Assembly: GCA_910575585.1 (NCBI GenBank) | Contig: CAJTGF010000052.1 | Location: 1 to 37,857, forward strand | Length of the DNA stretch: 37,857 nt | Direction: 5' to 3' | DNA from: Clostridiaceae bacterium | Lineage (GTDB): Bacteria > Bacillota > Clostridia > Lachnospirales > Lachnospiraceae | Shown: one piece after another, positions 6,524 through 28,119 of the stretch | Position numbering within the stretch: position 1 is the stretch's first letter | How the letters are laid out: each line of letters begins with the position of its first letter | Translations under genes and position numbers: made by a program | Notes under the pieces: generated by a model | What the model was told of the DNA's origin: nothing | The model's input: the letters and a program-made list of their open reading frames with translations, nothing else | The model's database searches: none

Positions 6524-6946
6524 ATGCTATCTCCTTCAAACGAAGACCGTATTTGCGCTATGTTCGATTCCTTCTGCAAAACGGTGTCGCGCAACTTTGT
6601 CAGAAATTTAGACCGGGCCGGGAACAACCGGGACAAGCATTTTGCTGACGAACCGGTAGACTATCTTCTGGAAACATTAGGCCGCAGGGATGAATACCCT
6701 TCCGAGTCTTTCGTGCTTTATGTGGGCGGATACTCCTGTGCGGTGGAGAGCGAAACTTTATATAAAGCACTGTTATCCCTGCCGGAGAGGCAGAGGAACG
6801 TCCTGCTCTTGGACTTTTGGGGCGACCTCTCCGACCGGGAAATCTCGGAAAGGATGGAGGTGACACCGCGCACTGTCTACAACCTGCGGCAGCGCGCATT
6901 TAGCAAAATCCGCGAGTATTATGAAAAGCGGGGACGAGATCCATGA
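6524..6946 (+). CDS. Sigma-70 family RNA polymerase sigma-like factor (ICE type)
   Basis: A 140-residue protein with a sigma region 4 at its C-terminus: LPERQRNVLLLDF (about 86-98) followed by the helix-turn-helix SDREISERMEVTPRTVYNLR (about 102-121). The N-terminal half is a weak region 2 match. Proteins of this size and order, directly before a HTH_16 gene, are typical of Tn916/Tn1549-type conjugative elements, where they control element genes. RBS GGGAGG is 10 bases upstream. It overlaps the next gene by 26 bases. It is a candidate reader of the repeated TTGYYT-N17-TAATCT promoters downstream (inference). Confidence 0.82.
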   Translation: MLSPSNEDRICAMFDSFCKTVSRNFVRNLDRAGNNRDKHFADEPVDYLLETLGRRDEYPSESFVLYVGGYSCAVESETLYKALLSLPERQRNVLLLDFWGDLSDREISERMEVTPRTVYNLRQRAFSKIREYYEKRGRDP

Positions 6947-17142: not shown

Positions 17143-17430
17143 ATGGAGAAAGACATTGTTGCCGCAATCCTGCGGTATCTGAAACAAAGCCCTTTGTGCT
17201 TCGCATGGAAAACCCACGGCGGGATGTACGGCACAGCGGGTATCCCGGACATTATCGCCTGCATAGGCGGAAAGTTTTATGCTTTCGAGGTGAAGCAGCC
17301 CGGCGGGCGGCTCTCCCGATTGCAGGAAGTAACTTTGAAAAAGATTGAGGCCGCTGGCGGCGTGGCTGTTATGGTGACTTCGGTGGATGAAGTCAAGAAG
17401 GCGCTGGCGGGGAAAGGAGAAACATTATGA
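17143..17430 (+). CDS. VRR-NUC domain nuclease
   Basis: A 95-residue stand-alone VRR-NUC nuclease. The PD-(D/E)xK core is visible: GIPD (33-36) and FEVKQPGGRLS (48-58, catalytic Glu49 and Lys51), with an early Glu in the first helix. Family members cut branched or structured DNA, which would suit resolution of replication intermediates before packaging. The stop overlaps the next gene. The candidate origin lies directly upstream. Confidence 0.9.
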   Translation: MEKDIVAAILRYLKQSPLCFAWKTHGGMYGTAGIPDIIACIGGKFYAFEVKQPGGRLSRLQEVTLKKIEAAGGVAVMVTSVDEVKKALAGKGETL

Positions 17431-17906: not shown

Positions 17907-18623
17907 TTAGATTGTTTGTCGAGATATATAATCTTTCAAAAAGCGAATACATCCTTCAACAAAATAGAATACAAATTTTTCATAGTTTAGTGTGGTTTCA
18001 AAACGGTAAGTTATTGGTTTACCTTTACATTTCTGATAACAGCTTATCATTTGATCGTCTGTTGACATTGAGGTAAGCCAGATAGAATCACTATCATGGC
18101 TAAAAACCTGCATAGACCAAAAATCACCTTCATGAGCTGCCATGCAGCGAATCCTAAATAAAATCATGGAGAAATCGCTTATTGATAACGAATAATACTC
18201 TTTAGTATCAAATAGTAGTCGTGACTTTTCATCCATTTCATAATCAGGTTCAAGACCCATAAATCTAAAATGGCTCAGTATGTATTGCTGCCCGTCTTGA
18301 CTGATATAATCATTATAAAAATTAACGATACTTTGTTGGTTATCGTTGAGAGCGTAAATGGCTTCAAGACCTGTTCTTAAAAATAGAACACGCAATGGAT
18401 CACGCTTCGGTCGGATGATTTCTATATCGTTAGCAAGTGTTACAAAGTTATAAATTTGGTTCATCATTCGCCGAGGCGTTTTATCTATATCGTCATGTTT
18501 GAATACGGAAATAAAGAATGTATTCATATCTTCTTTTGTGCCGAAATAAGGTGAATAAAATTCTTCGTATTTAAGCTGGTATTCATAAGGGAATCCGGCT
18601 ATCTCAAAAACATTTTCTGCCAT
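17907..18623 (-). CDS. AT-rich cargo (moron-like) protein of unknown function
   Basis: A 238-residue protein on the strand opposite to all its neighbours, in a clearly AT-richer segment (about 17870-18705). ATG 18621-18623 has AAAGGAG 8 bases before it; an ATG 42 bases further upstream lacks one. It has no signal peptide, membrane segment or catalytic motif I recognise; it is rich in aromatic residues with a mixed helical pattern. Reverse-strand AT-rich genes at late control regions in prophages are often lysogenic-conversion or superinfection-exclusion genes, which is the best guess here. Confidence 0.7.
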   Translation of the reverse strand: MAENVFEIAGFPYEYQLKYEEFYSPYFGTKEDMNTFFISVFKHDDIDKTPRRMMNQIYNFVTLANDIEIIRPKRDPLRVLFLRTGLEAIYALNDNQQSIVNFYNDYISQDGQQYILSHFRFMGLEPDYEMDEKSRLLFDTKEYYSLSISDFSMILFRIRCMAAHEGDFWSMQVFSHDSDSIWLTSMSTDDQMISCYQKCKGKPITYRFETTLNYEKFVFYFVEGCIRFLKDYISRQTI

Positions 18624-18704
18624 AATATTACTCCTTTCTCGGAAATTTGTAATATAGCTTACCATATTTCAGAGTGATATTCAACCATAGAACTTATTTA
18701 AGAG

Positions 18705-18729
18705 GACACTAAAAGACATAGAAAGACAC
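18705..18729 (+). promoter_or_regulatory. Three GACAC/T direct repeats at 10-bp spacing, candidate late operator
   Basis: GACAC (18705-18709), GACAT (18715-18719) and GACAC (18725-18729) repeat every 10 bases, one DNA helical turn, each in an A-rich setting. They precede a possible late promoter in CTGGTAGTATTAC (18739-18751). In phages with ArpU/RinA-type regulators such repeats could be the activator site. Binding is inferred from position only. Confidence 0.45.
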
Positions 18730-18780
18730 CCTGAAAATCTGGTAGTATTACAATAGCAACAAAAGCAGGAATACAGGACG

Positions 18781-18814
18781 GCCTTCGCAGGAGCAATCTG
18801 CGGGGGCTTTTCTT
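18781..18814 (+). terminator. Terminator-like hairpin before the HNH gene
   Basis: GCCTTCGCAG (18781-18790) pairs over 10 positions with CTGCGGGGGC (18798-18807), including two G-U pairs, with a 7-base loop and TTTTCTT after it. It lies between the candidate late promoter and the first late gene, so an antitermination step is possible. Confidence 0.6.
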
Positions 18815-18838
18815 ATGCCCGAAAGGAGGCGGCAGCTT

Positions 18839-19201
18839 ATGCCATACAAACCCAAGCGCCCCTGTTCCTATCCCGGATGCCCGCGCCTTACGGACGGGCG
18901 CTATTGTGAGGAACACCAGAAAATTGTCACGGCGCATTATAACAAGTACGGGCGCGACCCGGCCAGTAAGCGGCGCTATGGCCGCGCATGGAAACGGATT
19001 CGTGACCGCTATATCAGCGAACACCCGCTCTGTGAGAAATGTAAGGAGGCCGGGAAGCTGACCCCTGCTGAGGAGGTTCACCATGTAACGCCATTGTCGC
19101 GCGGCGGCACCCATGACCGGAATAACCTCATGGCCTTATGTAAGAAATGCCACTCTGAAATTACTGCGCGGGAAGGCGGACGCTGGGAACGCCGACGGTA
19201 A
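18839..19201 (+). CDS. HNH endonuclease, packaging-associated
   Basis: A 120-residue HNH nuclease. The motif is EVHHVTP (79-85), N95/N96 and H105; CEKC (65-68) and CKKC (101-104) form the structural zinc site. An HNH protein directly before the small terminase is usual in HK97/cos-type siphoviruses, where it works with the terminase in cutting concatemers. ATG 18839 has AAAGGAGG just upstream; an in-frame ATG at 18815 lies in the preceding hairpin region. Confidence 0.92.
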   Translation: MPYKPKRPCSYPGCPRLTDGRYCEEHQKIVTAHYNKYGRDPASKRRYGRAWKRIRDRYISEHPLCEKCKEAGKLTPAEEVHHVTPLSRGGTHDRNNLMALCKKCHSEITAREGGRWERRR

Positions 19202-19891: not shown

Positions 19892-20479
19892 ATGAATATA
19901 TTACAGCTCCCTTTGGAGGAGGTACACCCTTACGAAAACAATCCGAGAAAGAACGATAATGCCGTGGACGCGGTGGCGGCCAGCATTAAGCAGTATGGTT
20001 TTCTTGTCCCTCTGGTGATCTCTGCCGAGTATGAGATCATTGCCGGACATACCCGGTACAAGGCGGCGGGGAGGCTTGGCCTTTCCACGGTTCCCTGCGT
20101 CATTGCTGACGAGCTGACCGAGGATCAGATAAAAGCCTTCCGGCTGGCGGACAACAAGGTGGGCGAGCTGGCACAGTGGGACGTGGATTTGCTCCCGTTG
20201 GAGCTGGCGGACATTGCGCAGGATATGACGGTGTTCGGTTTTGAGAGCATTTCCGAGGAGGAATTTGGCGAGGAATTTACGCTGGATTCCGGCGAGAAAA
20301 AGCCCTACCAGCAGATCAGCCTTACCCTGCACGACAAGCAGGCGGAGCTTATCATGGCCTGCATTGATTACGTCCACGCCCACGAGGAAGTCGGGGAAAC
20401 CTTCGGCAATGAGAACCGGAAGGGCAACGGCGTGTATGAGGTGGTGCGGCAATGGGCAGAGCAAAAGAAATTAGTCTGA
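19892..20479 (+). CDS. ParB N-terminal domain protein
   Basis: A 195-residue protein with a ParB/sulfiredoxin-like domain in the first 100 residues: VHPYENNPRKND (about 10-21), then the signature IIAGHTRYKAAGRLG (about 49-63). Phage relatives often accompany DNA methyltransferases or modification enzymes; the ParB fold can bind CTP or nucleotide. The C-terminal half is acidic and without a known domain. Its end overlaps the first Mom-type gene by 28 bases, showing coupled expression with the modification genes. Confidence 0.82.
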   Translation: MNILQLPLEEVHPYENNPRKNDNAVDAVAASIKQYGFLVPLVISAEYEIIAGHTRYKAAGRLGLSTVPCVIADELTEDQIKAFRLADNKVGELAQWDVDLLPLELADIAQDMTVFGFESISEEEFGEEFTLDSGEKKPYQQISLTLHDKQAELIMACIDYVHAHEEVGETFGNENRKGNGVYEVVRQWAEQKKLV

Positions 20480-21195
20480 AAGTGATACCGGGGAAGGTGG
20501 CAAACCCATTCATGCGGCGGCACCATTACAGCGGTACGGTGGTAAACAATAGCTGCCTGCATTTTGGCGTATTCTTAGACGGGCGGCTTCATGGCGTTAT
20601 GAGCTATGGGCCGAGCCTGAACAAATCCAAAATCCTGCCGCTGGTGGCCGGGACTGGCTGGAATGAGTATCTGGAATTAAATCGGATGGCCTTTGACTGC
20701 GTCCTTCCGCGCAATTCCGAGAGCCGGGCAATCTCCCTGAGCATTAAGCTGCTCAAAAAGTATGCGCCCCATGTCAAGTGGATCATCAGCTTTGCGGATG
20801 CCTGCTCCTGCGGCGACGGGGCAATCTACCGGGCCAGCAATTTTATCCTGACCGGCATTAAGGAAAATGAAGCGCTCTGCCTGCTGCCGGACGGCACGAA
20901 AATCCACAAGCTGACACTGGAAGCAAATCCGCTGGCCCCGCGCAAGGAGCTGGGCGGGCGTTCCTTCTTTGACGTGACCGACGGCAACTTTAGCTGGGGC
21001 CGGTACATGGAGGCAGCAGGCGGCACATTGCTTTCCGGCTACCAGCTCCGCTATATCTATTTCATAGACAAGGCGAAGCGGAAAGATTTGACCGTCCCGG
21101 AAATCCCCTATTCCCGCATTGACGAGATGGGGGCTGGGATGTATAAGGGCGAAAAAATGACACTGGCCGAGCGCCATGTGGGAAAGGAGGCGTAA
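20452..21195 (+). CDS. Mom-family DNA-modification protein, copy 1
   Basis: A 247-residue protein that I place in the Mom (adenine methylcarbamoylation) family, a GNAT-fold group. Conserved stretches are HHYSGTVVNNSCLHFGVF (about 24-41), ELNRMAFD (about 75-82), PRNSESRAISLSIK (about 86-99), ISFADACSCGDGAIYRASNF (about 112-131) and YQLRYIYFID. Mu Mom converts adenine in DNA to a bulky N6-modified base that resists restriction; the same role is likely here. It is about 70 percent identical to the next gene by eye and overlaps the ParB gene. Confidence 0.72.
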   Translation: MGRAKEISLKVIPGKVANPFMRRHHYSGTVVNNSCLHFGVFLDGRLHGVMSYGPSLNKSKILPLVAGTGWNEYLELNRMAFDCVLPRNSESRAISLSIKLLKKYAPHVKWIISFADACSCGDGAIYRASNFILTGIKENEALCLLPDGTKIHKLTLEANPLAPRKELGGRSFFDVTDGNFSWGRYMEAAGGTLLSGYQLRYIYFIDKAKRKDLTVPEIPYSRIDEMGAGMYKGEKMTLAERHVGKEA

Positions 21196-21197
21196 GG

Positions 21198-21944
21198 ATG
21201 GGCCGGGCAAAAGAGATTGTGATGAAAGTGATCCCCGCAAAGGTGGCGACCCCGTTTATGAAGGCCCACCATTACAGCGGCAAGGTGGTGAATAACAGCA
21301 CGCTCCATTTTGGCGTGTTCTTGGACGGCCAGCTCCACGGCGTTATGAGCTACGGGCCGAGCCTCGACAAGTCAAAGATAATCGGGCTGGTGAAGGATAC
21401 CGGCTGGAATGAATTTCTGGAACTGAACCGGATGGCCTTTGACAGCTACCTTCCCCGCAATTCCGAGAGCCGGGCGATCTCCATGAGCATTAAGCTCATA
21501 AAGAAATATGCGCCGCAGATCAAGTGGATCATCAGCTTTGCCGATGCCTGCTCCTGTGGGGACGGAACCATTTACCGGGCCAGCAACTTTGTCCTGACCG
21601 GCATTAAGGAAAACTTAAACCTTGCGGAGCTTCCTGACGGCTCCCACGTCCATAAGATGACGTTAGCCAGTAACCCCACTTCTCCCCGGAAGGAGCTGGG
21701 CGGCCTGACCTTTTTTGATGTGACGGGCGGCACCTATAATTTCAAGAAATATCTGGACTATGTGGGGGCCACACCGATCCCCGGCTATCAGCTCCGCTAT
21801 ATCTATTTCATAGATAAGAAAAAGCGGCAGGATTTGACGGTGCCGGAGGTTCCGTTCTCCATGATTGACGAGCTGGGGGCCGGGATGTATAAAGGCGAGA
21901 AGGTATCGCAGGCCGAGCGGCACAGCAAACTTACGCCGGAGTAA
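21198..21944 (+). CDS. Mom-family DNA-modification protein, copy 2
   Basis: A 248-residue tandem paralogue of the previous gene, beginning 2 bases after its stop. The same blocks are kept (HHYSGKVVNNSTLHFGVF, PRNSESRAISMSIK, FADACSCGDGTIYRASNF, YQLRYIYFID), while the segments around residues 60-70, 135-150 and 175-195 differ. That pattern fits duplication followed by change of target or substrate recognition, or formation of a hetero-oligomer. The role in anti-restriction DNA modification is inferred from the family. Confidence 0.72.
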   Translation: MGRAKEIVMKVIPAKVATPFMKAHHYSGKVVNNSTLHFGVFLDGQLHGVMSYGPSLDKSKIIGLVKDTGWNEFLELNRMAFDSYLPRNSESRAISMSIKLIKKYAPQIKWIISFADACSCGDGTIYRASNFVLTGIKENLNLAELPDGSHVHKMTLASNPTSPRKELGGLTFFDVTGGTYNFKKYLDYVGATPIPGYQLRYIYFIDKKKRQDLTVPEVPFSMIDELGAGMYKGEKVSQAERHSKLTPE

Positions 21945-21959
21945 CGCTCCGGCCATCAT

Positions 21960-22029
21960 GCGCGGATAGGCTAAGGGCAGACCGCCCGCCAACCGGCGGG
22001 AAATGGCGGTTCGATTCCGCACTCCGCGC
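21960..22029 (+). other. tRNA-like sequence, non-canonical
   Basis: GCGCGGA (21960-21966) pairs perfectly with TCCGCGC (22023-22029) like an acceptor stem. TA and GGCT-AAGGGCA-GACC resemble a D arm (one mismatch). CCCGCC-AACC-GGCGGG forms a strong stem where the anticodon arm would be, and GCGGTTCGATTCCGC is an almost perfect T arm. The anticodon loop is too short and lacks T33, so a working tRNA is unlikely. It may be a decayed tRNA or a tRNA mimic. Confidence 0.45.
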
Positions 22030-22044
22030 TCTAAATTTCCGCCC

Positions 22045-22073
22045 TTGCTTTCCACGGGCTTTCAGGGTAATCT
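22045..22073 (+). promoter_or_regulatory. Repeated cassette promoter, copy 1
   Basis: TTGCTT (22045-22050), 17 bases, TAATCT (22068-22073), then 31 bases to the ATG at 22105. This is the most divergent of five copies (spacer ends TTTCAGGG). It drives the zinc-ribbon gene and the ParB-methyltransferase. The tRNA-like hairpin stands directly upstream where three other copies have a terminator. Confidence 0.6.
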
Positions 22074-22104
22074 GTCGTCACATTTTGAAAGCGAGGGATT
22101 TATT

Positions 22105-22539
22105 ATGAGCGAGCAGTATTTGAAAATCGGGAGCTATACGCCGGAAAAGGACGGTAAAGAGGCGGTCATAGAACGGGACTATTTTCAGCAGGGCTGGATC
22201 GTAAAGGACGAGGAGGCCTTTCTGAAATTCCCGGATAAGGTCTGCTATGTGCCGGAGCTTTCCAACGAGGGCTATACCCGGCAGGATTTTCTGGATATGT
22301 GTAACGGGCAGGAGGAATTTGCCACCATGCTGTTTGAAATGGTGGACTGGCAGAGCCCGGAAACTTTGAAAAATGAGCTGTTCGATATGCGGGAGATTGA
22401 CTTCTGCCCGGTATGCAAAAAGCTCTATTTCATGGCAGGGGAACAAAAGCCCTGCCCGATATGCGGGAGAAACCCGGAGGAGGTAGAACATGCAGATACA
22501 GAAAGTGAGCGCCGACCGTCTGAACCCGGCGGCCTATAA
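22105..22539 (+). CDS. Zinc-ribbon protein of unknown function
   Basis: A 144-residue acidic protein. The C-terminal part has a two-pair zinc ribbon, CPVC (about 104-107) and CPIC (about 121-124). The N-terminal hundred residues contain no known domain. The ATG sits 31 bases after the repeated -10 box, as in the sister units, which supports the start. Its 3' end overlaps the methyltransferase gene by 50 bases. The name of the family is unknown to me. Confidence 0.65.
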   Translation: MSEQYLKIGSYTPEKDGKEAVIERDYFQQGWIVKDEEAFLKFPDKVCYVPELSNEGYTRQDFLDMCNGQEEFATMLFEMVDWQSPETLKNELFDMREIDFCPVCKKLYFMAGEQKPCPICGRNPEEVEHADTESERRPSEPGGL

Positions 22540-23788
22540 CCCGCGCCGGGATTTGAAGCCCGGCGACAAGGACTATGAAAAACTGAAACGCTCCATTGAG
22601 GAGTTTGGATTTGTGGAGCCGGTGGTCTGGAATAAAGCCACCGGCTTTGTAGTGGGCGGCCACCAGCGGTTGAAGGTCTTGCTGGATATGGGCGAAACCG
22701 AGATCGACTGCGTTGTGGTGGACTTGGAGCCGGAAAAGGAAAAGGCGCTGAACCTTGCCCTCAACCGGATTCAGGGCGATTGGGACGAAGGGAAGCTGGC
22801 GGAGGTGCTGGCCGATCTGGACGCTTCCGCCTTCGACGTATCCTTTACCGGATTTGACGCGGAGGAGATCGACGCATTGATGAACAAATTTTACTCCGCC
22901 GAGGCGCAGGAGGATGATTTTGACCGGGAAAAAGCGGCGGCGGAAATGGAAGCCGCTGGCGGCACGTCCGCCCGGCCCGGCGACCTTTGGGAGCTGGGGG
23001 ATCACCGCCTGCTGTGTGCAGACGGGGCCTGTGCGGAGGATATGGAGCGGCTCATGGAAAATGAGCGGGCCGCCTGCGCCATTACCGCGCCGCCCCTCGG
23101 CTCCCGGAAGGAATATGTGAAGGAAGGGCTGGCCCCGTGGCTCTCCCGCATGGGCGAGGCCGCACAAAACCTCTGCCGCCATGCGGAGATCATCTGCTGG
23201 AACATGGGCGACCTGTTCGCCACCGGGACGCAGTATGTGGAACCCACCGGCTTTTACAGCATGAAGCTGTTTTCCGACTGCAATTTCCGCCCGCTCTGGA
23301 TACGGGTGTGGAAAAAGCAGGGGCAGCAGGCCCGCGCCGGTTCCACGCACCTAAACAGCGCAAAGCCCCAGCGCCAGTTTGAATATCTGGCTGCCTTTGC
23401 CGGGGAGCAGGCGGAGGAATACAACCTGCCGGAATATGCTTGGGTGTCCGCCTTTGCGGCCCACAATTACCACTTCGTGAAGCGCCTTACCAAAGAGGAG
23501 CGCCGCAAGTGGGGCTATGCCGGAGTATGGGAGATTTCCGCGCCAGCGCCCGATACGGACGGGACGCTCCCGGTTCCCGTGGAGCTGCCGTGGCGGTGCA
23601 TGAAGATGCACTCCGATCCGGGCGGCCTGATCCTCGACCCCTTCGCCGGGGGCGGCTCCACGCTGATCGCCGCCGAGCAGAGCGGGCGGCGGTGTTTCTG
23701 TATGGAGAGCGACCCGGCCTCCTGCGAGCTTATCGTCATGCGCTGGGAGCAGTTTACCGGGGAAAAGGCGGTTAAAAAATATGTTTAA
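22490..23788 (+). CDS. ParB-DNA methyltransferase fusion with altered motif IV
   Basis: A 432-residue protein. Residues about 1-110 are a ParB domain (NPRRD at 17-21, VVGGHQRLKVLLD at about 54-66). Residues about 160-432 are a DNA adenine/cytosine-N4-type methyltransferase. The AdoMet motif LDPFAGGGST (about 382-391) is intact, but the catalytic motif IV, normally (D/S/N)PP(Y/F), reads TAPPLG, with Ala200-Pro-Pro-Leu203. A catalytically weak or differently acting enzyme is therefore possible. Such fusions are common next to terminase genes in Firmicute phages, where they modify phage DNA. No terminator follows. Confidence 0.82.
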   Translation: MQIQKVSADRLNPAAYNPRRDLKPGDKDYEKLKRSIEEFGFVEPVVWNKATGFVVGGHQRLKVLLDMGETEIDCVVVDLEPEKEKALNLALNRIQGDWDEGKLAEVLADLDASAFDVSFTGFDAEEIDALMNKFYSAEAQEDDFDREKAAAEMEAAGGTSARPGDLWELGDHRLLCADGACAEDMERLMENERAACAITAPPLGSRKEYVKEGLAPWLSRMGEAAQNLCRHAEIICWNMGDLFATGTQYVEPTGFYSMKLFSDCNFRPLWIRVWKKQGQQARAGSTHLNSAKPQRQFEYLAAFAGEQAEEYNLPEYAWVSAFAAHNYHFVKRLTKEERRKWGYAGVWEISAPAPDTDGTLPVPVELPWRCMKMHSDPGGLILDPFAGGGSTLIAAEQSGRRCFCMESDPASCELIVMRWEQFTGEKAVKKYV

Positions 23789-23806
23789 GAATTTTTGTTT
23801 TTGAGC

Positions 23807-23835
23807 TTGCCTTTTGAGGTGTTCCAGAGTAATCT
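23807..23835 (+). promoter_or_regulatory. Repeated cassette promoter, copy 2
   Basis: TTGCCT (23807-23812), 17 bases ending GTTCCAGAG, TAATCT (23830-23835), then 31 bases to the ATG at 23867. Downstream CTGCTCACATCAAA matches the leader of the other copies. No terminator precedes this copy. Confidence 0.7.
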
Positions 23836-23866
23836 CTGCTCACATCAAACGAAGGAGGTCATCCAC

Positions 23867-24238
23867 ATGACAATGATAGAAAGAGTAAGCAGCTTCAAGA
23901 ACGAATATTTTAACGCCTTAATCGAGAAATACACCGACAGAAAGCAGGCTCCGGAAAGCCACGGCATGAACCGCGCCATCCGCGCCTATCTGGAAAGCAA
24001 CGACGAGAACCTTTCCGAGCTTATGGTGAGCGATATGCCCTTTATGCAGGATATGGACGACTTCATGGGAACTATTGAAGCGGCGGGCATTACGGAATTT
24101 CTTCTCTGTGATACCTCCACGGCCCTTATGGAAACCCTGCACTACCTCATGGGGCATGGCTGGCAGATAACCGGAACCTGTGAATTTTCTACCAGCCCTT
24201 ATACGAAACGGCAGGGGCTGCGCATGAAAAAGGCATAA
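23867..24238 (+). CDS. Orphan accessory protein
   Basis: A 123-residue acidic protein (many Asp, Glu and Met) with no family I can name. It appears alpha-helical in the first half (FKNEYFNALIEKY) with an alpha/beta C-terminus ending in a basic tail. It is the only gene in its unit: repeated promoter upstream, intrinsic terminator 10 bases after its stop. Small acidic single-gene phage cassettes are often anti-defence proteins, but nothing here proves it. Confidence 0.65.
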   Translation: MTMIERVSSFKNEYFNALIEKYTDRKQAPESHGMNRAIRAYLESNDENLSELMVSDMPFMQDMDDFMGTIEAAGITEFLLCDTSTALMETLHYLMGHGWQITGTCEFSTSPYTKRQGLRMKKA

Positions 24239-24242
24239 AAAG

Positions 24243-24267
24243 AAAAGGCCCGGAAACGGGCTTTTTT
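24243..24267 (+). terminator. Cassette terminator 1
   Basis: GCCCG (24248-24252), GAAA tetraloop, CGGGC (24257-24261) and six Ts, with flanking A/T pairing. It ends the 23867 unit and runs straight into promoter copy 3. Confidence 0.85.
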
Positions 24268-24279
24268 CCGTCGTGAGCC

Positions 24280-24308
24280 TTGTCTTTCAGGCGGTCTAAG
24301 GGTAATCT
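24280..24308 (+). promoter_or_regulatory. Repeated cassette promoter, copy 3
   Basis: TTGTCT (24280-24285), 17 bases, TAATCT (24303-24308), then 31 bases to the ATG at 24340. GTGAGCC stands just before the -35 and GTGTCACACCAAAAAA after the -10, both shared with copies 4 and 5. Confidence 0.75.
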
Positions 24309-24339
24309 GTGTCACACCAAAAAAGGAAGGAGGTTTGGT

Positions 24340-24762
24340 ATGGCACAAAGAACAGATGAAGGAGGTACGCCTATGCTGAGTAAGGAGCAATACCGGGATG
24401 TGGTGGACGGTATCCGAAGGATACACCGGATCGCCCGCCACCTTGCCCGGATACCGGAGGAGAGGCTTTCGGTGGATATGGATACTGCGCTGGACGTGGA
24501 CTATATCAACGAATGGCTTGACATTATCCTCTGCCGGATTTGCAGGCAGGAGGCGGTCAAAATGCCCGCGCTTCCCGAAAACCCCGGCCCGCAGGAGCTG
24601 TACCGGTACTGCATGAAAAAGGCAGAAAAACAGGCGGGGCGCATCCGCTTCGGGCTTTTTACCGACAGGATTGGCCGGGAGCTTCTCACGCAGAACGCAT
24701 GGGAAGGAGTAGACAGCGCGGTATCCATGCTGGAAAGCGTGGCCGCGGAGCAAAGGAGGTAA
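24340..24762 (+). CDS. Orphan accessory protein, helical
   Basis: A 140-residue mostly helical protein; no named family recognised. Two starts are credible: ATG 24340 (AAGGAGG upstream and exactly 31 bases from the -10, as in sister units) and in-frame ATG 24373, which has its own GAAGGAGG. The double site may give two forms or help re-initiation. The body has an Arg-rich first helix (GIRRIHRIARHLARI) and a short CRIC cysteine pair. First gene of a four-gene unit. Confidence 0.62.
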   Translation: MAQRTDEGGTPMLSKEQYRDVVDGIRRIHRIARHLARIPEERLSVDMDTALDVDYINEWLDIILCRICRQEAVKMPALPENPGPQELYRYCMKKAEKQAGRIRFGLFTDRIGRELLTQNAWEGVDSAVSMLESVAAEQRR

Positions 24763-24767
24763 ATTTG

Positions 24768-25007
24768 ATGGGATTCCCAAGAAAAGAGATTGTGGAGGCG
24801 GTACGCGCCCGGTATCCGAAGGGGACGCGGGTGGAGCTGGTTTCTATGGATGACCCTTACAGCAGGTTAAAGCCCGGCGACCGGGGAACCGTAAAATCTG
24901 TGGATGATACGGGGACGGTTCATGTAAGCTGGGACTGCGGCTCCGGCCTCGGTGTGGTTTACGGCGAGGACGAAATCCGTATCTTGGAGGGCGGTGATTT
25001 TGAATGA
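24768..25007 (+). CDS. DUF4314 domain protein
   Basis: A 79-residue protein of the DUF4314 type, known from Tn1549-like conjugative elements and their relatives. It has an SH3-like barrel pattern: KGTRVELVSMDDPY (about 18-31), LKPGDRGTVKSVDDTGTVHV (about 34-53) and a final YGEDEIRIL. The role is unknown. AGGAGG precedes the ATG, and its stop overlaps the next start in ATGA. It is the clearest ICE-type family among the accessory cassettes. Confidence 0.8.
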   Translation: MGFPRKEIVEAVRARYPKGTRVELVSMDDPYSRLKPGDRGTVKSVDDTGTVHVSWDCGSGLGVVYGEDEIRILEGGDFE

Positions 25008-25369
25008 GCGGGATTTTCCATGAGGGCCGCTTCTATGAGAACACGGATATGGTCTGCCGCCGCTGCGGCCATCCGGTGTATGAATCCGATAACCCGGAGT
25101 ACCGCTATCAGTGTTTTTACTGCGACGAGGATCTGTACCGCTTTGAGATAAGGGAGCAGGACGGCCTGTACCTGCCGCCGGTCATAGTGGCCCGCCCGGT
25201 GGACGGCATTACCTTGAATGAGGCGCTGGAATACCTGCTGGGCGAAAACGAAAAGCCCCGCATATTTTCAAACCAGCCGGAGGCGGAGTGCTTCCTGCTG
25301 GCACAGGGCATGGACGCGGAGGCTTTGGAGCATTTTTATTTTGTGGAGGTGACGGAGGATGAAGAATAA
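25004..25369 (+). CDS. Zinc-ribbon orphan accessory protein
   Basis: A 121-residue acidic protein with an N-terminal zinc ribbon, CRRC (about 14-17) and CFYC (about 32-35). The remainder resembles an alpha/beta segment with an acidic tail. No family recognised. It is translationally coupled to the DUF4314 gene (ATGA) and overlaps the next gene by 11 bases, so the proteins are made together. Confidence 0.65.
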   Translation: MSGIFHEGRFYENTDMVCRRCGHPVYESDNPEYRYQCFYCDEDLYRFEIREQDGLYLPPVIVARPVDGITLNEALEYLLGENEKPRIFSNQPEAECFLLAQGMDAEALEHFYFVEVTEDEE

Positions 25370-25757
25370 AGGGTGTGCTTTTGAACTGAAAGGCGACGGG
25401 AAATCCCGGTATTATTCCGCCCCGGAGGTTTCGGGGCTGGCGGATTTTGCCCGCTTTCTGTATGAGAACCGCGCCGGTGCAGCCGGTACTCCCCTGCCGC
25501 TTGGAGAGCGGATACCGCAGGCAGAGGAAATTTCCGAGACAGCATGGCAGAAAATAGCGGATCACAAAGCGGCGGGCTGCGCCTGCTACTTTATGCTGGA
25601 TATACGCGAAAACCAGATGTGGGTAAACGAGGATACGGGCGCGGGGCTGGCGCTCTATCTATTCCCATTTACTGCGGTCATGGAGGAAGCGGCCACTGGC
25701 ACCGGCGATATTTGGGAGCGGCTTCTTGCCCGCTTCCCCGGTGCAAAGCTGGGATAA
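25359..25757 (+). CDS. Orphan accessory protein
   Basis: A 132-residue protein with no recognised family. It has an N-terminal SRYYSAPEVSGLADFARFL segment, a Cys pair in GCACYF and a hydrophobic strand-rich second half. No signal peptide. It is the last gene of the four-gene cassette unit and is followed 10 bases later by an intrinsic terminator. Confidence 0.6.
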   Translation: MKNKGCAFELKGDGKSRYYSAPEVSGLADFARFLYENRAGAAGTPLPLGERIPQAEEISETAWQKIADHKAAGCACYFMLDIRENQMWVNEDTGAGLALYLFPFTAVMEEAATGTGDIWERLLARFPGAKLG

Positions 25758-25767
25758 TACGCAAAAA

Positions 25768-25793
25768 AAAAAAGCTCGAAACCGGGCTTTTTT
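25768..25793 (+). terminator. Cassette terminator 2
   Basis: GCTCG (25774-25778), AAAC loop, CGGGC (25783-25787, one G-U pair) and six Ts, within A-rich and T-rich flanks. It is similar to the terminators at 24243 and 26222 and runs into promoter copy 4. Confidence 0.82.
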
Positions 25794-25805
25794 CGTCGGT
25801 GAGCC

Positions 25806-25834
25806 TTGTCTTATGGGGCGTTCCAGAGTAATCT
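25806..25834 (+). promoter_or_regulatory. Repeated cassette promoter, copy 4
   Basis: TTGTCT (25806-25811), 17 bases ending GTTCCAGAG, TAATCT (25829-25834), then 31 bases to the ATG at 25866. The GTGTCACACCAAAAAC leader is nearly the same as in copy 3. Confidence 0.75.
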
Positions 25835-25865
25835 GTGTCACACCAAAAACAAGGAGGAGCGAACC

Positions 25866-26213
25866 ATGATAGATTTGAGGAATTATAAGGACTATATCCG
25901 GGAGCTGGTGGCAGAGCAGGATAAGAAGGATACGAACTGGCATTGGTCGGTGAAAAGTATCGGAAAGAGCCTCGTCCGTATCCGCTGGGGCTATCTGGAC
26001 TACTTGGAGGAAAAGGAAAACTGCTTCCTGCTTTCTATGGACGAAGCCGCAGGCGACTGGCTGTGGGCCAAGAGGCCGGACGGCGGGCTGATCGAATGTT
26101 ATCTGGTAGTGGAGGGCAGGCCGAACCCGCAGCTTGGCGCAGAGCAGACAATCAAAAGCGGCCTGCGGGACGCGGTTTGGGAGATCGCCTACACCGCCCA
26201 CAACTGCTATTAA
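25866..26213 (+). CDS. Orphan accessory protein
   Basis: A 115-residue protein with many aromatic residues (WHWS, RWGYLDYL, WLWAKR) and an acidic N-terminus; no family recognised. It forms a single-gene unit between promoter copy 4 and terminator 3. Like its neighbours it is a candidate anti-defence or host-takeover protein by context only. Confidence 0.62.
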   Translation: MIDLRNYKDYIRELVAEQDKKDTNWHWSVKSIGKSLVRIRWGYLDYLEEKENCFLLSMDEAAGDWLWAKRPDGGLIECYLVVEGRPNPQLGAEQTIKSGLRDAVWEIAYTAHNCY

Positions 26214-26221
26214 GAATACTC

Positions 26222-26249
26222 AAAAAGCCTGAATTTCCGGGCTTTTTTT
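26222..26249 (+). terminator. Cassette terminator 3
   Basis: GCCTG (26227-26231), six-base loop, CGGGC (26238-26242, one G-U pair) and seven Ts, with A-run/T-run extension. It runs into promoter copy 5. Confidence 0.85.
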
Positions 26250-26260
26250 GTTGTGAAGCC

Positions 26261-26289
26261 TTGTCTTTTCGGGTGTTCCAGAGTAATCT
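26261..26289 (+). promoter_or_regulatory. Repeated cassette promoter, copy 5
   Basis: TTGTCT (26261-26266), 17 bases ending GTTCCAGAG, TAATCT (26284-26289), then 30 bases to the ATG at 26320. The CTGTCCACATCAAAAAA leader matches copy 2 most closely. Confidence 0.75.
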
Positions 26290-26319
26290 CTGTCCACATC
26301 AAAAAAAGGAGGTTTTTCA

Positions 26320-26631
26320 ATGAAACAGACAGCAGAAATGAAGCAGGCGGCCTTCGTGGAACTTATGCACGACAACGGCTTTCAGTATCTCGGAGCGACT
26401 GCCCGCGACGGACAATTTATCTATGAGCGCACATGGCGGCATACCGTACCGGTGGCCTTCTATGGCGAGCAGGAGCGCACCTACCGGATCGCGGCGTATA
26501 TCAGCTTCGGCGTACCCATCGTCCAGCTTTTCGAGGACGGGCGGCATACCAGCACCCGCGACTATTCCAGCCCCAAGCGGGCCATGAACGCAATCAAAGA
26601 AATTATCCGGTGCGCCGGGTATGCCATGTAA
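26320..26631 (+). CDS. Orphan accessory protein
   Basis: A 103-residue alpha/beta protein, no family recognised. Features are an N-terminal helix, FQYLGATARDGQFIYER, a hydrophobic strand segment RIAAYISFGVPIVQLF and a basic C-terminal helix. First gene of a three-gene unit; AAAGGAGG is 7 bases before the ATG. Confidence 0.6.
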   Translation: MKQTAEMKQAAFVELMHDNGFQYLGATARDGQFIYERTWRHTVPVAFYGEQERTYRIAAYISFGVPIVQLFEDGRHTSTRDYSSPKRAMNAIKEIIRCAGYAM

Positions 26632-26642
26632 GGAGGGCGGCT

Positions 26643-27122
26643 ATGAGCGATTTTAGAGAAGAATACGAGAAAAAATACAGCCCCATGCGGGCAGCGAGAA
26701 AGGACATATCCCCGGAGCTTCACGAAACGCTGGTGCAGCTTTGCCAGCGCAACTGCTGGGTAAAGCGCCACGGCATCCCCTTCCATGACGATCCCTGCTT
26801 GGAATTAGACAGCCCTTATACGTTCTGCGAGTATGAGGACATTGCCATGTTGAAGTTATTTTTTGAACATGGGAATTGGAGCATCCGGCAGGGCGTGGTA
26901 TACAAAGACTTGTTCTTCTGCAATCAGGTAAACGGCGGCGACGAATGGTGGACGTGCCGGTACGACCATGAGGCCGGGGCCTACTTCCCCTTTGAGAGCG
27001 TAACCATGAAAGCGGTGATTGATAAGGGGGAATTTGAAACCCTGCTGGCGGATATGCTGGCGGCCACGGTGGAGCAATGCAAACATCTGGAATATGCGGG
27101 AAGGAGTAAAGAGCATGAATGA
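26643..27122 (+). CDS. Orphan accessory protein
   Basis: A 159-residue protein, no family recognised. It opens with a charged helix (SDFREEYEKKYSP), then LHETLVQLCQRNCWVKRHG and a Trp/Tyr/Phe-rich half (NGGDEWWTCRYDHEAGAYFPF). The ATG is 12 bases after the previous stop with AAGGAGGG. It overlaps the next gene by 8 bases. Confidence 0.6.
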   Translation: MSDFREEYEKKYSPMRAARKDISPELHETLVQLCQRNCWVKRHGIPFHDDPCLELDSPYTFCEYEDIAMLKLFFEHGNWSIRQGVVYKDLFFCNQVNGGDEWWTCRYDHEAGAYFPFESVTMKAVIDKGEFETLLADMLAATVEQCKHLEYAGRSKEHE

Positions 27123-28056
27123 TTTGTTTTCAAACTGGCTGGCCTCCGGCGACGCTGGCCCCTGCTGCTTTCAGGACGGCGGCCACGGCTATATCGTGGT
27201 GCGGATAGAGAAAAACGCGGACTTTGAATATCTGTTCTGCCAGCAGCTCTATCATAAGGAAAACCTGACGAGGAGCGGTACTTTCAAATATGCCGGAATC
27301 TACTGCAGGAAGGACGGCCTTTTGTATGACATACAGTATAGCTTTTCCGAGATTGCGGAAGGCCCGGAGGCCATAAAGGAGCGGTCTGCTGAAACGCTCC
27401 GGGAGAAGCTAAAGGCGGCTGTGCGGGAAAAGGTGGAGGCGGCTATCGGCAATGACCGGAGCAATCTGCAGGTTGCGGAAATTACGGACAGCGGGCTTTT
27501 GAGCCGTCTGGAATATACCCTCAATTATGACGCGAAGGAAACCGCCCGCAGGCGCTATCTGGATACGGTGGATTTTGAGCCGCAGGCATTTTCCTGCCAC
27601 TACGACCCGGATCACTGGAAGGAGGATTCGCTTCTTTCCTATATCGCCGACCCGGAGGGCTATGCGCAGAAGCAGGCGGAGGATTTTATCGCGGAAAATC
27701 AGGAAAATATGCTGTTTGATTTTCTGTATAATGACGCGGTTTTGAAGGAATACCGGGCCATTCTGGCGGATACCAAAAACCCGGTACACCTCATTAAAAA
27801 AATCTCGGCGGCAATGGCTACGACCTCGGCAAAGACGGTCAATGTCACCATTTCCAAAAACGGCACGGAATTTACCTTCAAGACGGAGGCGTTCTCCCTG
27901 CGCGGGGACTGCGGGAGCCACTATAATTCATGGAGCATTGTGGCGGCAGACCGCAGGAAGTTTGAGGAGCTTTTTGGCCGGAGCGCGGACTATACGCCGG
28001 GGGAAATCCTTTGCATTACCTACGCCAGAAACGTATTGTATGAAGCCGGGAAATAG
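27115..28056 (+). CDS. Large accessory protein of unknown function
   Basis: A 313-residue protein, by far the largest of the orphan cassette genes. It has an alpha/beta N-terminus, a long charged helical middle (about 80-110: KERSAETLREKLKAAVREK) and a C-terminal strand-rich region (VNVTISKNGTEFTFKTEAF). No catalytic motif recognised and no membrane segment. It ends the accessory block; a terminator follows 34 bases on. Confidence 0.65.
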   Translation: MNDLFSNWLASGDAGPCCFQDGGHGYIVVRIEKNADFEYLFCQQLYHKENLTRSGTFKYAGIYCRKDGLLYDIQYSFSEIAEGPEAIKERSAETLREKLKAAVREKVEAAIGNDRSNLQVAEITDSGLLSRLEYTLNYDAKETARRRYLDTVDFEPQAFSCHYDPDHWKEDSLLSYIADPEGYAQKQAEDFIAENQENMLFDFLYNDAVLKEYRAILADTKNPVHLIKKISAAMATTSAKTVNVTISKNGTEFTFKTEAFSLRGDCGSHYNSWSIVAADRRKFEELFGRSADYTPGEILCITYARNVLYEAGK

Positions 28057-28089
28057 GCCCGGCCAGTAAAACTTAAAAATTATCTTTAA

Positions 28090-28119
28090 GGGGCTTCCTT
28101 CCGGGGAGGTTCCTTTTTT
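28090..28119 (+). terminator. Terminator of the accessory block
   Basis: GGGGCTTCC (28090-28098) pairs over nine positions with GGAGGTTCC (28105-28113), several as G-U, with TTCCGG loop and six Ts. It lies 34 bases before the large terminase start, so the structural operon must either read through it or start from an unseen promoter. Confidence 0.7.

Follow-up and report, generated by a model that had tools for sequence, protein, structure and literature searches.

A 37,857-nucleotide contig of a Clostridiaceae bacterium (CAJTGF010000052.1, assembly GCA_910575585.1; this whole stretch is called the window) is, by its gene content, a siphophage-type prophage resembling 'Ca. Heliusviridae', in which five accessory gene cassettes begin behind copies of one promoter-like element. 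The locus raises the question of what this element does and which factor reads it. The five copies are most likely promoters of moron-type cassettes that belong to a lineage-wide promoter class. We assign a probability of about 0.65 to the reading in which the element serves as the start point of transcription for the moron-type accessory cassettes of a 'Ca. Heliusviridae'-like prophage. Under this reading, the element is probably a shared plug-in switch placed before genes that are gained, lost, and swapped among relatives.

The initial annotation described five plus-strand copies of TTG(T/C)(C/T)T, 17 bases, and TAATCT, starting at 22045, 23807, 24280, 25806, and 26261. All five are present with an exact 17-base spacer, and the distances from TAATCT to the ATG codons at 22105, 23867, 24340, 25866, and 26320 are 31, 31, 31, 31, and 30 bases, respectively. 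With the preceding C included, the sites are as follows.

22044..22073, + strand: site A (CTTG..AGGGTAATCT), heading the gene at 22105-22539 and the overlapping ParB-methyltransferase gene at 22490-23788
23806..23835, + strand: site B, motif match
24279..24308, + strand: site C, motif match
25805..25834, + strand: site D, motif match
26260..26289, + strand: site E, motif match

The additional conservation described for these copies holds in part. The stretch GTTCCAGAG recurs in three copies (23807, 25806, and 26261), while TGTCACACCAAAA, given as a general conserved stretch, occurs in two copies only (24280 and 25806) and is replaced by GTCGTCACATTTT, CTGCTCACATCAAA, and CTGTCCACATCAAA in the others. 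With up to two mismatches allowed, a loose two-box pattern occurs 13 times in the window, where 7.5 occurrences are expected, and 7 of 100 shuffles reach that count; apart from the five exact copies, these matches are background. The refined pattern CTTGYYTTN4GN3TN3ARRGTAATCT, allowing three mismatches, yields five matches against 0.00 expected (0 of 100 shuffles), but it was derived from these same five copies, and its independent support is recurrence in relatives. The host genome (6.13 Mb) contains nine exact loose matches, five of which lie in the window, and none of the four outside it carries AGRG before TAATCT.

To survey relatives, we searched one genome per species across 84,980 species and obtained 18 stretches, of which 12, in nine genomes, share the same context and six were judged by eye to be chance matches. 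An IMG/VR search returned 10 stretches on six contigs. From the window and 15 related records, 52 sites were collected as CTTG-19-GTAATCT; this pattern demanded both boxes, and the constancy of its 11 letters is therefore partly imposed. Looser half-profile scans of eleven records, as far as these were fetched, detected one extra site (TAAGCT, in G399); they revealed neither a full-length site with a different spacing nor anything else near site scores. In the scans that did not demand CTTG, it precedes every full-length GTAATCT site. All sites lie at cassette heads in the block bounded by the Mom genes and the large terminase gene, and the element is confined to this accessory block in the stretches scanned. 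The start codon lies 29-34 bases downstream in 51 of the 52 sites and 52 bases downstream in the remaining one. The hexamer after the leading C is TTGTCT in 29 sites, TTGCTT in 12, TTGCCT in four, TTGTAT in three, TTGTTT in two, and TTGCAA and TTGATG in one each; the bases after TTG are likewise variable in sigma-70 -35 boxes. Orthologous sites across records, named A to E, differ in the freely measured spacer columns at 0.2-0.65 per pair in 14 of 19. This drift of the spacer, set against the lasting boxes, suggests selection on both boxes, a conclusion tempered by their having been required in the collecting pattern. The nearest neighbour of a site is of the same type in 49 of 52 cases and from the same phage in none. 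Since the sites resemble their orthologs rather than their genome mates, the copies are old.

The cassettes behind the sites and the hairpins that flank them in the window are listed below.

22105..23788, + strand: cassette A, a 144-aa protein without a family match and a ParB-like/N6_N4 methyltransferase fusion
23867..24238, + strand: cassette B gene, DUF7698 match
24246..24267, + strand: intrinsic terminator-like hairpin directly 5' of site C
24340..25757, + strand: cassette C, four open reading frames, of which 24768-25007 is DUF4314
25772..25793, + strand: intrinsic terminator-like hairpin directly 5' of site D
25866..26213, + strand: cassette D gene, 115 aa
26222..26247, + strand: intrinsic terminator-like hairpin directly 5' of site E
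26320..28056, + strand: cassette E, genes at 26320, 26643, and 27115
28088..28115, + strand: terminator-like hairpin closing the block before the large terminase gene, aligned in relatives

The cassettes turn over among the relatives. Site A is present in 12 records of the family, while cassette D is absent, cleanly between two sites, from G393, G396, G397, G400, and G403. Sites D and E are both absent from G395, G398, and G405, site E from G401, and site B from G396, G397, and G400. The gene that follows site B in G403 and G404 has no match to the window DUF7698 gene (tblastn, 1e-5) and is a replacement. A homolog of the cassette D gene, 56% identical, resides on a 68-kb viral contig, and in the 12 kb of it that was read, no element precedes this homolog and no other window gene is matched. 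As in morons, insertion between genes that are adjacent in relatives is found for cassette D and for a terminase/portal unit of G408, described below. A terminator-like hairpin lies within 45 bases upstream of 9 of 13 C sites, 5 of 5 D sites, and 10 of 11 E sites (24 of 29 together), as compared with 0 of 23 A and B sites, 8 of 300 random 45-mers, and 0 of 32 other gene starts. The C, D, and E sites are mostly so near these hairpins that another promoter has little room. Directly 5' of site A, a tRNA-like gene occupies 21959-22029 on the + strand; ARAGORN reports it as 'tRNA-???', and the tRNA-Sec model scores 24 bits, below the cut-off. The aligned region upstream of site A looks conserved in 10 of the 12 records with an A site; G395 and G396 are the two that differ.

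A similar element occurs in sister phages. G407, G408, and G409, with terminases 75-83% identical and without a Mom match, carry CTTG-15-AGAG at the head of accessory units; the sequence that comes next is CGAATATG, CGAACATG, or TGATTAATG/TGATGAATG. The unit containing the DUF4314 gene is preceded by this sister element in all three phages. Its commonest form, CTTGNTN12YAGAGYGAAYATG, is found in at least 120 IMG/VR stretches; twenty long contigs chosen from these hold one to five copies each, allowing two mismatches, with a single match in the 20 for the reversed-pattern control. A 94-bp sister copy used as a query matches 36 phage records at E <=1, and 20 of them cover at least 80% of the query. 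The weakest named match, Gardnerella AB1 (E 0.2), shows the element plainly on reading, and it is also read in Streptococcus Javan105, Erysipelothrix phi1605, and Terrisporobacter TPDSL_ph1 (GTTG for CTTG); these four carry AGAGTGATATAT in place of AGAGCGAATATG. In four of five opened regions, the sister element lies between a methyltransferase gene and the large terminase gene, and the fifth record ends before that point. The lineage with the element is represented mostly by records from gut Firmicutes, with a single one from Gardnerella. In G408, the terminase-portal gap holds a sister element, a 74-aa gene, and a terminator-like hairpin identified by eye, as compared with 17 nt in G407; this putative insertion fits the moron definition. 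The box at 17-bp spacing after TTG is TAATCT in the window family, versus GAATAT (70) or GAACAT (7) in 77 pattern-chosen sister sites, and the A at position 2 is the only box letter common to the window family and all sister copies. Column-profile alignment of the two families scores above every one of 400 column shuffles, and does so with CTTG fixed as well, although it is favoured by T-rich and A-rich zones common to both elements. A LexA-like reading of the sister element was discarded because the right half-site is not conserved. As separate observations, one sister-type copy (L214, G000:C2:148863) lies on another contig of the same host genome, which thus holds both element types, and the 3 kb around it contains no match to the window proteins tested. 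A viral contig with three sister elements carries a SAM riboswitch above the Rfam gathering score (L171:5760-5847, - strand).

We infer a sigma-70-type promoter because TTG is kept while the rest of the -35-like hexamer varies, the spacing is single, and the C, D, and E sites lie near terminator-like hairpins. Each site would be a promoter of this type (TTG, 17 bp, TAATCT), its transcript opening with a short leader that carries a strong ribosome site, and expression of each cassette would not depend on the replication and late operons. An intrinsic terminator would shield most C, D, and E cassettes from upstream transcription. The host polymerase is the simplest candidate reader; in its housekeeping form, alone or with a further phage factor, it would transcribe the cassettes, which would be co-expressed. 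With the same promoter on every cassette, cassettes could be gained, lost, and re-filled without rewiring. The dedicated regulon of the initial annotation is retained in its shared, promoter-like geometry and its confinement to the accessory block, and loses the sigma-like factor from 6524 or 8581, in which region 4 alone is recognised.

Several observations weigh against the promoter reading. A scan for the consensus sigma-A promoter (TTGACA-17-TATAAT) is passed by none of the five window sites, although TTG, the 17-bp spacing, and TAnnnT of the pattern are present, and TAATCT is a poor sigma-A -10 box, which leaves room for a phage factor or an operator. The A and B sites lack the upstream hairpins, and some sister-type copies from outside the pattern-chosen set have GATATA or GATTAA, in which the -10-like letters are not kept. 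The nhmmer profiles of the window sites and the sister element find each other in neither direction. Moreover, the sites fold better than their shuffles, with a mean z of -1.98 for 48 distinct sites and -1.32 for the five window sites, as compared with -0.35 for 38 other gene starts and -0.29 for a further control; such folding is not required of a pure DNA promoter.

A broader form of the promoter reading is a tentative possibility. The family-level lineage may have its own promoter class (CTTG-15/16-AGRG-box-leader) that runs exchangeable accessory genes and is read by a polymerase-modifying factor, and window-type lineages may have shifted the box, for example from GAATAT to TAATCT, together with its reader.

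It is rather doubtful that the element is an operator, at which a phage regulator, either a lysogeny repressor or an activator, recognises a dyad with the -10 box at its centre and controls the five promoters together. A perfect 5-bp dyad, CAGAG-TAAT-CTCTG, is present in window sites B and E (23825 and 26279), and the -10 letters are more constant than sigma recognition needs. However, the dyad is imperfect in the A, C, and D copies, and elsewhere in the window, with the five sites excluded, it has six matches at up to three mismatches against 6.1 expected. In addition, no lysogeny regulator was identified on this contig.

The proposal of the initial annotation, that a phage sigma-like factor encoded at 6524 or 8581 runs a dedicated regulon, now appears unlikely. 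In its favour, the early module contains both genes, their products match sigma-70 region 4, and TAATCT is constant yet far from the sigma-A consensus. Of the 15 genomes or records that bear the motif, eight have an ortholog of 8581 (58-95% identity); in the other seven, several of which are fragments, there is none or a weak match. Region 2, the reader of -10 boxes, is recognised in neither protein, and their structure models are confident only in the C-terminal part matching region 4, the N-terminal part being unreliable. The recognition helix of 8581 differs among nine motif carriers. In 6524, five motif carriers agree at 10 of 11 positions of this helix, and the agreement is just as close in G407 and G408, which have no CTTG-19-GTAATCT match even when one mismatch is allowed. 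The 36%-identical 6524-type protein of G409 has nearly the same recognition helix, and G409 has one motif match with one mismatch. Among 25 sister-element records, 6524 matches occur in four (none full-length) and 8581 matches in 10 (four full-length). Sigma region 4 (PF08281) was also considered as a diagnostic of the sister element and set aside, as it is found in 17 of the 20 contigs (six over the cut-off) and is too common. The regulator encoded at 17427, which we take to be of the ArpU/RinA type, was rejected as the reader because it is undetected (E 1e-5) in G402, G401, G395, G396, and G406, which span the place and keep the motif; in these five, the region before the HNH gene is different and the motif is unchanged. 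None of 6524, 8581, and 17427 is supported as the reader of the element.

An RNA role is quite unlikely and is kept as a minor rival. The 5' arm (CTTG...) of an mRNA leader would pair with the ribosome-site region and control translation, or silence read-through transcripts while promoter-made ones are translated. The folding of the sites agrees with this, as does the ribosome site, predicted to be freer in 40 of 48 sites when the transcript starts after the -10 box. A-type sites can form an 11-bp helix, CCCTTGCTTTC/GAAAGCGAGGG, and across all types the native arms pair better than re-dealt ones (0 of 5000 and 0 of 3000 reach them; 31 of 3000 with A sites excluded). Within types, however, the native value is reached by 2701 (A), 1014 (C/D), and 105 (B/E) of 3000 permutations, which is negative or borderline, and the inner helix shows no covariation. 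The unpaired fraction of the ribosome site, at 0.28, is only slightly below the 0.33 obtained with a shuffled 5' arm, and is lower in 26 of 48 sites, 8 of the 11 distinct A sites being the exception; the A helix is broken in G396. The 77 sister elements show no spacer/ribosome-site covariation (359 of 5000), with 298 and 1067 of 5000 for the upstream arms. At the gathering score, Rfam gives no match in the window, and over seven sister loci its sole match is the SAM riboswitch in one. Outer GTGA/TCAC arms are not convincing, as 31 of 1000 shuffles reach the native value, and RNAalifold retains only three apical pairs; with the covariation and within-type tests also unsupportive, a leader with a sequestered ribosome site was rejected.

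It is highly improbable that the repeats are recombination boundaries kept for cassette exchange and without a transcription role: cassettes do turn over at the junctions, and a terminator followed by the element makes the C, D, and E junctions resemble one another, but the near-fixed start-codon distance, the ribosome sites directly downstream, the single orientation, and a similarity that tracks cassette type and not phage, with no sign of frequent within-genome junction exchange, all argue against it.

The surrounding prophage was characterized by PHROG and Pfam searches, and its genes are listed below by start position.

9244: SNF2 helicase (PHROG/Pfam)
11947: DNA polymerase A (PHROG/Pfam)
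14317: D5-type primase (PHROG/Pfam)
17143: VRR-NUC-like, below the Pfam cut-off
17427: regulator phrog_36/DUF1492 (PHROG/Pfam)
18815: HNH (PHROG/Pfam)
19324: small terminase (PHROG/Pfam)
19892: ParB-like (PHROG/Pfam)
20452: Mom-type protein, assigned via 75% similarity to 21198
21198: Mom-type protein, matches PF25680
28147: large terminase, then portal, protease, capsid, and tail genes

The gap of about 8 kb between the small and large terminase genes is filled by the accessory block. In phage records, the terminase finds its 12 best matches at 77-79% identity, among them Erysipelothrix phi1605, Streptococcus Javan630, and PV036425, the last of which carries the label Ca. Heliusvirales. At 20452-21944, the Mom-type genes are paired and adjacent beside the ParB-like gene, as they also are in the relatives mapped over that place. 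Between the 17427 regulator and HNH genes, a 252-aa gene on the - strand (17907-18665), possibly a recent insertion, has no tblastn match (1e-5) in the other 16 mapped stretches, about ten of which span the place. Two versions of the segment at 18665-18840, which precedes the HNH/small terminase unit, occur among the window and its relatives. Repeated GACAC/AGACA boxes are found in phages with a 17427-type gene (the window, G404, G393, G394, and G400), and a TNTGNTATRCTG-like box is found where this gene is undetected (G402, G401, G395, G396, and G406) or gives a weak partial match (G399). It looks as if the regulator and its target have been exchanged together.

The closest described lineage is 'Ca. 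Heliusviridae' (PMC9226167). The window terminase shares 77.9% identity with its counterpart in phi1605, which is listed as a member, and the window contains capsid, portal, Clp-like protease, terminase, PolA, helicase, and nuclease-like genes, kinds that the available part of the source lists as core. These are seven kinds, the nuclease being below the Pfam cut-off, of the nine genes described there as shared; the other two are of unknown function. In contrast, the words promoter, motif, and intergenic are absent from the main text as available, and the element is undescribed there.

Among the systems in the literature searched, as far as the sources were available, we found no description of a conserved promoter-like element common to a lineage's exchangeable cassettes with a wider sister version, although its components are of known kinds, namely morons and repeated phage promoters. 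In the accessible part of PMC3203893, the SAS/ESAS sites of cluster K mycobacteriophages are, like the present element, repeated directly 5' of genes, mostly in one orientation, conserved with gene families, and of unknown reader. SAS is a 13-base motif, GGGATAGGAGCCC, which in ESAS is accompanied by imperfect inverted repeats of 17 bp; the element described here is without both, neither being seen by eye in the 52 site sequences, and has -35/-10-like spacing. The 21-bp promoter candidates of Bacillus phage 0305phi8-36 are likewise a repeated, phage-specific promoter-like motif, with 14 copies in the phage and none in a B. thuringiensis israelensis genome, according to the portion of PMC2147016 available. 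That phage differs in having a 218-kb genome and a putative RNA polymerase of its own, and its motif is mixed with other promoter spaces and is not tied to exchanged cassettes. Morons, as the available part of PMC4378225 presents them, share with the present cassettes a promoter-like start, a terminator at many junctions, insertion between neighbours, and presence or absence among relatives. The present cassettes differ in that one conserved promoter-like sequence is common to a phage's cassettes, with a similar one in sister phages, and in that some are multigene. If the morons of a widespread gut phage lineage do share such a promoter class, it would offer a sequence signature by which accessory genes could be located and timed in phages that are very common and little studied, and the acquisition and control of morons would become testable by a single reporter experiment.

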